Shown here in pieces: positions 61,225 through 64,000 of a DNA stretch of 64,000 nucleotides. Position 1 is the stretch's first letter; every line of letters starts with the position of its first letter. The DNA lies in NCBI GenBank assembly GCA_014297435.1, contig JACOQA010000003.1:62001-126000 (forward strand), given 5' to 3'. Position numbers and translations under genes: made by a program. The notes beneath the pieces were generated by a model. The model was not told the origin of the DNA, searched no databases, and saw only the letters and a program-made list of their open reading frames with translations. Source of the stretch: Candidatus Nanohaloarchaea archaeon. GTDB lineage: Archaea; Nanohalarchaeota; Nanosalinia; Nanosalinales; Nanosalinaceae.

Positions 61225-61374
61225 AATGTCACCAGGGGAGGTTTCCCCTTCCCTCTCTAAATATCGAGAAGGTTTCCAACCTAATTTAAAGTTTCTACCA
61301 GCTTCTAATTTTAGACGGTTCAACAGAGCGCTTCCTATTCCGGAAGGGCTTGACTGATTAAACTCGAGTTTGTT

Positions 61375-61460
61375 GCCGAGGTGACTGAGTGGCTAAAGGT
61401 GCCACCCTGGAAAGGTGGTGAGCGTTACAGCTCTCCTGGGTTCAAATCCCAGCCTCGGCG
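61375..61460 (+). tRNA. tRNA-Ser (GGA)
   Basis: The acceptor GCCGAGG/CCTCGGC, anticodon stem-loop CACC-CTGGAAA-GGTG (anticodon GGA) and a long variable arm of the class II type are present. The T-arm CTGGG-TTCAAAT-CCCAG and discriminator G complete it. CCA is not encoded. A T5 run directly follows the discriminator and may terminate transcription. Foreign-looking genes start about 100 nt beyond, so it is a candidate integration site. Confidence 0.95.
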
Positions 61461-61564
61461 TTTTTCAGCCGTTTCAGGCTCTAACGCCCGGTTTTAGTTC
61501 TCAACTTCTTCAAAATCCTAAAACTTCTCTAAACACTTCAATTCTTACTTAAGGGGTTTCTTTG

Positions 61565-61935: not shown

Positions 61936-62253
61936 ATGAAAGAACAAGAAGACAATCTAGAACAGCTTTTTATCAACGAAAAACCCTACAAAATGATTAT
62001 AAAACTGCTTAGAAACCGTCTAAAGGACGATTTATGTAAACATGATCTTTCTAAGGCGGTTGATTCCACTTATTCACACACAGTTAAAGTGGTTGATCGT
62101 TTTGAAGAACTAGAACTTATCGAAACCAAAAAAGAGGGTAGAAAAATGGTTATTACCCTAACATCAAAGGGTGTTGAGGTTGCTAAGGCTCTCGAAAACC
62201 TGGAATCTGTAAAAACAAAAAAGCTGGATTTAGAAGGAGTTGAATCTGCATGA
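61936..62253 (+). CDS. Element gene 3: winged-helix regulator
   Basis: The 105-residue protein has a winged-helix domain at about 15-80 (MIIKLLRNRLKDDL, SKAVDSTYSHTVKVVDRFEELELIETKKEGRKMVITLTSKG), a MarR/phage-regulator pattern with recognition helix and beta wing. ATG 61936 is preferred because it follows the zinc-finger stop by 1 nt; the longer frame from 61861 is in the finger gene. It is the natural candidate for the protein binding the TATAAC palindromes near 63.2-63.4 kb; this is inference. Confidence 0.75.
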   Translation: MKEQEDNLEQLFINEKPYKMIIKLLRNRLKDDLCKHDLSKAVDSTYSHTVKVVDRFEELELIETKKEGRKMVITLTSKGVEVAKALENLESVKTKKLDLEGVESA

Positions 62254-62531: not shown

Positions 62532-62975
62532 ATGGAAGAGGTTTCTAGCCTTAAAAGTCCTGAAGCTAGAATTGAATCTCTTGAAAAAGCTGTTAGGCAT
62601 TTGAAGGATAAAGTCAGAGAGTTAGAAGAACAAAAAGCCGATTTAAGCGATAGAGTACAGTTTCTTGAAAACAAAGAAGGAAAAAATCAGCCTAACAGAA
62701 AGTTTAAAGTTTCTAAAAGAATTACTAACGACAAAGGAGAATTAGAAAGAGATTTTTATGATGAAAGAGCTAAAAATGTCGCTAAAGAAGTTATGAAGCG
62801 TGGCAAAGCGAGAAGCGGCGAATTTGATAAAATACTCAGAGAACATGATGTCGACGTAAGTAACCCAACTAAATTGAATATAATGCGAAGATATGGCAAA
62901 GCCTTTGATTTTTTCAAGTTTAAAGGGCAGAAAAAAGGCGTTAGAAAGGAATCAGCTTTAATCCATACCCCTTAG
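62532..62975 (+). CDS. Element gene 6: coiled-coil protein with basic C-terminal domain
   Basis: The 147 residues begin with a coiled coil (about 10-50, SLEKAVRHLKDKVRELEEQK), then a basic linker and a helical C-terminal domain (about 75-130, YDERAKNVAKEVMKRGKARS, LNIMRRYGKAFDFFKF). It is not recognised. As last gene before the iteron-like region it is a candidate for binding it, but I see no replication-initiator motif. Confidence 0.65.
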   Translation: MEEVSSLKSPEARIESLEKAVRHLKDKVRELEEQKADLSDRVQFLENKEGKNQPNRKFKVSKRITNDKGELERDFYDERAKNVAKEVMKRGKARSGEFDKILREHDVDVSNPTKLNIMRRYGKAFDFFKFKGQKKGVRKESALIHTP

Positions 62976-63051
62976 AACCCTATTTAGCTCATTATTTTTA
63001 GGTCGAAAAAACCTTAATTTTACACGTTTCTGAAAGAAAGGCATAGCCGGA

Positions 63052-63087
63052 AGTTTAAGGTTTTTGCGATATTGAAAACCTTAAACT
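63052..63087. repeat. 13-bp palindromic pair of iterons
   Basis: AGTTTAAGGTTTT (63052-63064) and AAAACCTTAAACT (63075-63087) are perfect inverted copies around a 10-nt spacer, two iterons facing each other. This could be a dimer-binding site or a cruciform. Confidence 0.8.
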
Positions 63088-63171
63088 ATGTAGCTGGCTG
63101 GTTCTTCTTGTAAAATTCGGTTTTGTCTAGAAGTGTGAAAAAGCGGATTTAATGTTTAAGGTTTTCTAAAA

Positions 63172-63199
63172 TATAACACCATTATATAACACTGTTATA
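63172..63199. promoter_or_regulatory. Tandem TATAACNNNGTTATA-type boxes
   Basis: TATAACACCATTATA (63172-63186, one mismatch in the right half) and TATAACACTGTTATA (63185-63199, perfect) overlap by two bases and lie 13 bp apart. Paired repressor sites are a simple reading. Confidence 0.6.
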
Positions 63200-63347
63200 C
63201 TTTAGAAGTACACTTACAGACTCTTAACGTTAATTTTTTGGCGTAATGACTAAACAGTAAAAAACAGCGTTAAAGCCTAAAACCTTAATCTTCGGGGGGT
63301 TGGGGTCTCTAAGAAACGTGTAAAATTAAGGTTTTTAGCACGGACTT

Positions 63348-63368
63348 AATTATAACGCCGTTATAATT
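63348..63368. promoter_or_regulatory. Operator-like palindrome before the 63380 gene
   Basis: AATTATAAC-GCC-GTTATAATT has 9-bp perfect arms and contains the TATAACNNNGTTATA core. It ends 11 nt before ATG 63380 and overlaps the place where a TATA box or start site should be, so a protein bound here would block transcription. Confidence 0.6.
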
Positions 63369-63379
63369 TAGGACTAACT

Positions 63380-63814
63380 ATGAAACTATCAAACTTAACT
63401 CCCGGAAATTCGGACAGCTCCGGGGCGTTACTCGATTCCGGTGGTCGGGTCGCTGGTTCAATATTTCTTTTAGCGACTATGGCTCTTTTTGGCGGATTCG
63501 AACACGTCACGGGGTATTTAACTAGCGAGGCTTTTACTGTAGCCGGAGTTACCATGCTTTGGGCAGAAGTGGCGGTTATAGCGACTTCACTCTACGCGGT
63601 TGCTAACGCACAGACGACAAAGACAGGTATAAGCACGGCAGGAGCAACTTTACTTGTTTCAAGCGTGGCTTTTGTCTTTTCGAGCGGCTTGACTTCTTGG
63701 GTTAGTGGTTCTGCATCCAAGAGTCTTTTAATAACGGCTATTACGGCAGTAATCTATATAGCAACTATTGAAGGACGAGAGATAGGAGGTGCTGTGAAAA
63801 ATGTCACGAACTAA
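63380..63814 (+). CDS. Four-helix membrane protein (VP3-like?)
   Basis: The 144-residue protein has a polar N-terminus and four hydrophobic helices (about 23-40, 51-76, 86-107 and 113-131) with short loops and a short polar tail. Size and helix number resemble the internal membrane protein (VP3) of haloarchaeal pleolipoviruses, and a secreted protein follows as the spike gene does there; this is a structural analogy, not a homology claim. Its end overlaps the next gene by 14 nt. It lies directly behind the operator-like palindrome. Confidence 0.7.
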   Translation: MKLSNLTPGNSDSSGALLDSGGRVAGSIFLLATMALFGGFEHVTGYLTSEAFTVAGVTMLWAEVAVIATSLYAVANAQTTKTGISTAGATLLVSSVAFVFSSGLTSWVSGSASKSLLITAITAVIYIATIEGREIGGAVKNVTN

Positions 63815-64000
63815 ACTGATCTTCGGCTCACTTGCCGTCCTAAGCCTCATAGGAATGGTTTCGACATCAACCGCCTACCTTTCAGCAACCGACAGCGGAT
63901 ACGACACCAGCAACTACATAACGATCACAGAACCGATCAACAAGACCACAGTTTTCTACGGCGATCTAGAACAAGGAGAAAGCGACACAATAAGTTTTGA
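63801..64000 (+). CDS. Secreted protein, C-terminus cut by window edge
   Basis: ATG 63801 opens a frame that stays open to the edge (66 residues seen). MSRTK then a hydrophobic core to about residue 25 is a signal peptide, followed by a polar extracellular start (SATDSGYDTSNYITIT, NKTTVFYGDLEQGES). It overlaps the membrane-protein gene by 14 nt. It could be a viral spike, a secreted element protein or a surface protein; only the right flank can tell. Confidence 0.68.
   Translation, partial: MSRTKLIFGSLAVLSLIGMVSTSTAYLSATDSGYDTSNYITITEPINKTTVFYGDLEQGESDTISF

Follow-up and report, generated by a model that had tools for sequence, protein, structure and literature searches.

The right end of the window (the whole 64,000-nt stretch of DNA analysed) enters a 9.2-kb provirus integrated in a tRNA-Ser gene, and the repeat array at 62976-63379 is very probably the cis-control region of this provirus. 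A control role for the array is well supported; beyond it, we somewhat favor a combined function, in which the array would act both as a host-dependent replication origin and as the switch of the structural operon.

We recomputed the repeats from the sequence. The six copies of AAAACCTTAA that the initial annotation described in both orientations are exact, and their strands alternate (+-+-+-). The perfect 25-bp inverted repeat stands as described, with exactly 280 nt between its arms, and where one 13-bp facing pair had been reported two perfect ones are present (63052-63064/63075-63087 and 63074-63086/63154-63166). The boxes are nested as three concentric inverted repeats, 1/6 (25 bp), 2/5 (16 of 18) and 3/4 (13 bp), with the same 47-nt spacing between boxes 1 and 2 as between boxes 5 and 6. 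A second motif in the array is the palindrome TATAAC(R)(S)(Y)GTTATA, with two copies there plus one imperfect copy, and a further one near the integrase promoter. The features of the array are:

63007-63031, + strand: left arm of the perfect 25-bp inverted repeat, containing box 1 (repeat search)
63008-63017, + strand: box 1, AAAACCTTAA (exact word count, as for all boxes)
63055-63064, - strand: box 2, AAAACCTTAA
63075-63084, + strand: box 3, AAAACCTTAA
63156-63165, - strand: box 4, AAAACCTTAA
63162-63261, no strand: the 100 nt of the provirus with the highest A+T content (74%), a candidate unwinding element (composition scan)
63172-63186, no strand: imperfect host-type palindrome TATAACACCATTATA (motif search)
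63185-63199, no strand: host-type palindrome TATAACACTGTTATA (motif search)
63279-63288, + strand: box 5, AAAACCTTAA
63312-63336, - strand: right arm of the perfect 25-bp inverted repeat, containing box 6 (repeat search)
63326-63335, - strand: box 6, AAAACCTTAA
63351-63365, no strand: host-type palindrome TATAACGCCGTTATA, in operator position (motif search)

This arrangement is far from chance. The expected count of AAAACCTTAA in the whole 64-kb window is 0.25, with a maximum of 2 over 100 shuffles, and 1000 dinucleotide shuffles of the array region gave inverted repeats of at most 15 bp, versus the 25 bp observed. Note that in 2000 shuffles of the AT-rich 404-nt region some 10-mer reached a multiplicity of 6, low-complexity words included; what makes the array significant is thus the particular word, together with the long inverted repeat and the uniqueness across the genome. 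Across the whole host genome (998,768 bp), just two stray copies of AAAACCTTAA lie outside the array, so the cluster is not scattered over the chromosome, which would have spoken against an origin, and is effectively unique. No other 10-mer cluster of at least four copies per 400 nt was found in the ~300 kb of nanohaloarchaeal DNA scanned.

We found no convincing gene in 62976-63379, in agreement with the initial annotation. The array lies between the ORFs at 62532-62975 and 63380-63814 and is the only large non-coding stretch of the provirus, dividing the early genes from the structural operon. The A+T peak sits within it, overlapping the paired palindromes. As ssDNA, both strands fold far better than shuffles (z -5.2 and -7.0), and the fold is also strong as RNA (z -5.9); an Rfam search of the region gave no match except the tRNA (RF00005), so no RNA gene was recognised at the array. 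A bacterial promoter and terminator scan was not applicable, the host being an archaeon. Cumulative GC skew of the circular form, proposed earlier as a check, does peak near 63.8 kb, though with an amplitude close to that of a random walk, and the strand skews are uninformative on the replication start.

The element carrying the array has small early genes, the repeat region, a structural operon and then a tyrosine integrase on the reverse strand, all described ORFs being open:

61374-61461, + strand: tRNA-Ser (GGA), integration target (ARAGORN; Rfam RF00005)
61448-61461, + strand: attL CCCAGCCTCGGCGT, the 3' end of the tRNA (14 bp; repeat search)
61936-62253, + strand: winged-helix protein of 105 aa, AF_1382/MarR-like, candidate viral regulator (Pfam HTH_27, E 1.8e-4; PDB 2qvo, E 4e-7)
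62532-62975, + strand: 147-aa protein whose N-terminal coiled coil is confidently predicted; the final gene ahead of the repeats
63380-63814, + strand: 144-aa membrane protein, VP3-like, first structural gene (position; weak tblastn)
63801-64000, continuing past the window to 64826, + strand: 341-aa protein of unknown family with hydrophobic ends (ORF calls)
window-equivalent 70480: palindrome upstream of the integrase (motif search)
window-equivalent 70653-70666 (L004:10654-10667): attR, identical to attL CCCAGCCTCGGCGT (repeat search)

The att repeats predict a 9205-bp circle. The host, a nanohaloarchaeon, has an EF-1A 81-88% identical to that of Nanosalina and other nanohaloarchaeal sequences. 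Downstream of the 341-aa protein come a VP4 spike, an ORF6-like protein, a protein in the ORF7 position, an NTPase and the integrase, ending at 70407. PHROG searches assign the VP4-type spike/fusogen (phrog_2231, E 1e-70 over 487 residues), the ORF6-type protein (phrog_1938, E 8e-18) and the NTPase (phrog_1979, E 2e-54), and a Pfam search assigns the integrase to the tyrosine type (PF00589, E 5e-20). By tblastn, the spike matches VP4 of HGPV-1 and others and the NTPase matches pleolipovirus NTPases, at ~21-29% identity to named pleolipoviruses. The VP3-like protein fits by its size and its position upstream of the spike, with a weak tblastn match to HRPV-3 VP1 (E 0.008, small database). The tRNA att repeats and the tyrosine integrase are a trait of temperate members. 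From its gene content, we classify the element as a pleolipovirus-like provirus; no report of a pleolipovirus in a DPANN host was found in the literature searched.

The 341-aa protein, without a match in the phage collection, lies between the VP3-like protein and VP4 and may be a second spike-like protein of the kind reported for His2 and AvPV1. The predicted structure of the 147-aa protein has a mean pLDDT of 62.6, the coiled coil being its sole confident part, and no homologue of it was found. Close relatives of the spike, the NTPase and the 147-aa protein were absent from the viral contigs, as were close relatives of the spike from the GTDB genomes; an alignment-based search with the NTPase returned eight haloarchaeal pleolipovirus genomes and an unrelated contig (L088). 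In one nanohaloarchaeal genome (G014, L238:881-1141), an 87-aa winged-helix protein resembling the 105-aa one of the provirus lies near a palindrome and an RPA-like gene.

The early suggestion of a mobile-element origin or control centre gains from the integrase, att repeats and viral structural module that flank the array, while the origin function is one that we infer. A rep-like gene had been proposed as something to look for to the right of 64000; only structural genes, the NTPase and the integrase are there, the last of these meaning that the flanking element does not lack an integration gene. No replication initiator (HUH RCRE, Rep-Arvir or protein-primed PolB) was recognised by Pfam and PHROG among the ten larger proteins, and the provirus may still encode a highly diverged Rep.

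That no known archaeal origin box occurs in the array holds for ORBs: these host origin-recognition boxes were recovered beside the host orc1/cdc6 and are absent from the provirus, so that the array, if an origin, does not use the host's standard Orc1 boxes. What had been overlooked is that its palindromes are shared with the host orc1/cdc6 region. The palindrome TATAACnnnGTTATA is found inside the array, beside the start of the structural operon, where TATAACGCCGTTATA ends 15 nt before the first structural ATG, and at the integrase promoter. In the host genome, perfect copies at C8:157396, 159094 and 160482 adjoin the orc1/cdc6 and PolD genes; further perfect copies lie at C8:51162 and, beside P4-type primase and recombinase genes, at C11:926. 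This last locus (L177:135-2151) is a second putative integrated element, with a XerA-like recombinase, a P4-type primase and the same palindrome. A protein repeat as the source of the two palindromes inside a 1389-aa host ORF was ruled out, as frames and peptides differ. The PolD large subunit ORF (L175:2-4396) apparently carries an intein (TIGR01445 match).

We then surveyed 28 nanohaloarchaeal genomes, with a reversed-pattern control that gave zero matches in all 28. The palindrome is present upstream of orc1/cdc6 in 16 of the 22 genomes whose sequence reaches far enough upstream (exactly in 15, with a mismatch in the other), about 190-310 nt from the orc1/cdc6 match. Within the host's own family, copies near orc1/cdc6 make up five of seven (G026), five of eight (G027), two of two (G015) and two of three (G011) of all palindromes. 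Several orc1/cdc6 upstream regions have G-tailed ORBs of the form TCCAnnCGAAAnnnnGGGG, and in the host these flank the palindrome on both sides in inverted orientation; with ORBs beside the palindrome at orc1/cdc6, the region is presumed to be the chromosomal origin. The host locus L175:7246-7930 and its orthologs (L179-L198) form the presumed nanohaloarchaeal oriC beside orc1/cdc6 and PolD genes. The role of the palindrome at orc1/cdc6 could be gene regulation, origin action, or both.

The same palindrome as in the array precedes, by sequence comparison, the gene of an HTH regulator. It lies just upstream of the gene of a 114-aa HTH_3 protein in two genomes (G010 and G011). In 21 of 27 loci of this conserved gene, which in the host lies at C1:44607-44906 (L253), the palindrome TATAACnnnGTTATA is found 19-57 nt upstream with at most two mismatches; other stretches of these loci mostly have at least three mismatches. 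The conserved HTH_3 protein is thus the likely binder of the palindrome and a probable autoregulated, replication-linked regulator. No report of this 114-aa protein was found in the literature searched. In single genomes the palindrome also lies upstream of a ribonucleotide reductase gene (G016) or an RPA-like gene (G014), and in the genomes of family f4 it is dispersed among numerous intergenic sites, a distribution that favors a transcription factor as its reader.

In the combined function that we favor, the six boxes, a nested dyad around the A+T-richest spot, would be bound by a virus-encoded protein. Candidates are the 105-aa winged-helix protein and the 147-aa coiled-coil protein, whose gene directly precedes the array. 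Which of them reads the boxes is a guess from position, as is the candidacy of the 147-aa protein as a box-binding or replication factor. Binding would loop or open the DNA and, after excision, host replication proteins would be loaded at the array. The TATAACnnnGTTATA palindromes would be operators of the conserved host HTH regulator; as the palindrome recurs at the gene of this regulator and in the orc1/cdc6 region, viral expression would be tied to the replication state of the host. Binding of the palindrome by the HTH protein, binding of the boxes by a viral protein and replication start at the array are all steps that we infer. The origin role, to which we give a little better than an even chance, is suggested by the position, the dyad array, the A+T peak, the lack of a recognised Rep and the lack of a rival site. 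For the combined function also count the filling by the array of the large non-coding gap between early cassette and structural operon, the element-specific box cluster and the strong fold of the nested repeats.

The main rival, possible but clearly less probable, is a purely transcriptional lysogeny switch, with the boxes as operators through which a viral repressor loops the stretch separating the early genes from the structural operon, with host control added by the palindromes and with replication starting elsewhere, e.g. near attP. The palindromes next to the structural ATG and upstream of the integrase and the viral winged-helix gene close by fit such a switch, as do the palindromes that relatives carry just upstream of several genes, HTH and RNR among them. 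A promoter location of the palindromes speaks for a role in transcription more than in initiation. The absence of host ORBs from the provirus and the random-walk skew amplitude likewise count against an origin, as does the alternation of the boxes, typical iterons being direct repeats rather than alternating inverted ones. However, a nested array of 330 nt that has an A+T peak and folds strongly exceeds the usual archaeal operators in size; moreover, most of the boxes are located away from the core of the structural promoter, and no other origin candidate is equally conspicuous.

We regard as improbable a structured packaging, single-strand origin or terminus element, whose nested repeats would form ssDNA hairpins used in packaging or in rolling-circle replication. 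Pleolipovirus genomes are in some cases single-stranded or nicked, and the ssDNA folding of the array is strong. The SNJ2 origin, a hairpin with an adjacent inverted repeat, also offers a precedent (PMC13107129). Nevertheless, the provirus has no recognisable HUH or Rep-Arvir endonuclease, and all six boxes keep one exact sequence, which pairing alone does not require. Finally, a long inverted repeat enclosing 280 nt of non-coding DNA recalls a mobile insertion, a MITE or IS remnant with 25-bp terminal inverted repeats. This is largely refuted and was rejected: the sequence is single-copy in the genome, no target-site duplication is visible at the arm ends, and internal boxes and operators are not transposon features.

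Compared with the Pleolipoviridae (HGPV-1, HRPV-1, HRPV-10, HHPV3, His2; SNJ2-type proviruses), the provirus shares the order VP3-like, VP4 spike, ORF6, ORF7 and NTPase, the tRNA-targeted tyrosine integrase of temperate members and a size within 7-17 kb; it differs by the low identity of its proteins, the extra 341-aa protein, the lack of a recognised Rep and its nanohaloarchaeal host. The six-box nested dyad is absent from the ten pleolipovirus-type genomes compared. SNJ2, also a temperate pleolipovirus, has a non-coding origin with inverted repeats, in which a 22-nt hairpin and a single inverted repeat follow the Rep-Arvir gene (PMC13107129), whereas the candidate origin here spans 330 nt with six boxes and no Rep-Arvir is recognised. 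Of the ten genomes, only that of AvPV1 (proposed Thalassapleoviridae, PMC10919331), a related virus, approaches the array in repeat density: a mostly non-coding stretch of about 1 kb (L036:11400-12800) holds 15 copies of a GAATTAAGA-type word; its copies all run in one direction, unlike those of the array, and their sequence is other than AAAACCTTAA. This region is a candidate origin or control region of AvPV1, for which no Rep is named in the available text of PMC10919331. The lack of a known replication gene is shared with Epsilonpleolipovirus and HFPV-1, the former also without an assigned host (PMC10599561).

With archaeal oriC, where ORBs lie beside orc1/cdc6, the provirus shares the TATAACnnnGTTATA palindrome of the host's presumed oriC but no ORB match. 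Theta-plasmid iteron origins resemble the array in having several identical short sites and an A+T-rich segment beside the gene of a putative DNA-binding protein; here, however, the sites alternate in orientation and no Rep protein is identified. The search for the 10-mer cluster that had been proposed showed it to be element-specific, and the paired 10-mers occur in no other nanohaloarchaeal genome examined. The box pattern gave 13 matches in viral contigs, among which a low-GC contig (L048:4860-5270) has eight AAAACCTTAA copies in 370 nt in both orientations; it is an unrelated tailed phage, judged convergent and rejected as a relative. With no relative of the cluster in the nanohaloarchaeal genomes and viral contigs searched, conservation gives no test of the function of the array.

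Several pleolipoviruses lack a known Rep, and the available text of PMC10599561 describes no origin for them and leaves their replication open; the array is a compact candidate origin in such a virus. More tentatively, it may represent a new, Rep-less type of archaeal viral origin, in which a small virus-specific coiled-coil protein reads the nested dyad, and the shared palindromes couple the array to a previously undescribed nanohaloarchaeal HTH regulator acting also at orc1/cdc6 and the chromosomal origin. Besides orc1/cdc6 regions and some replication genes, the palindrome marks an HTH gene that is probably autoregulated, as well as two mobile elements. Both proposals, the candidate origin and the replication-linked regulator, are open to DNA-binding assays. 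Overall, the shared palindrome points to a replication-linked nanohaloarchaeal regulator that viruses appear to exploit.
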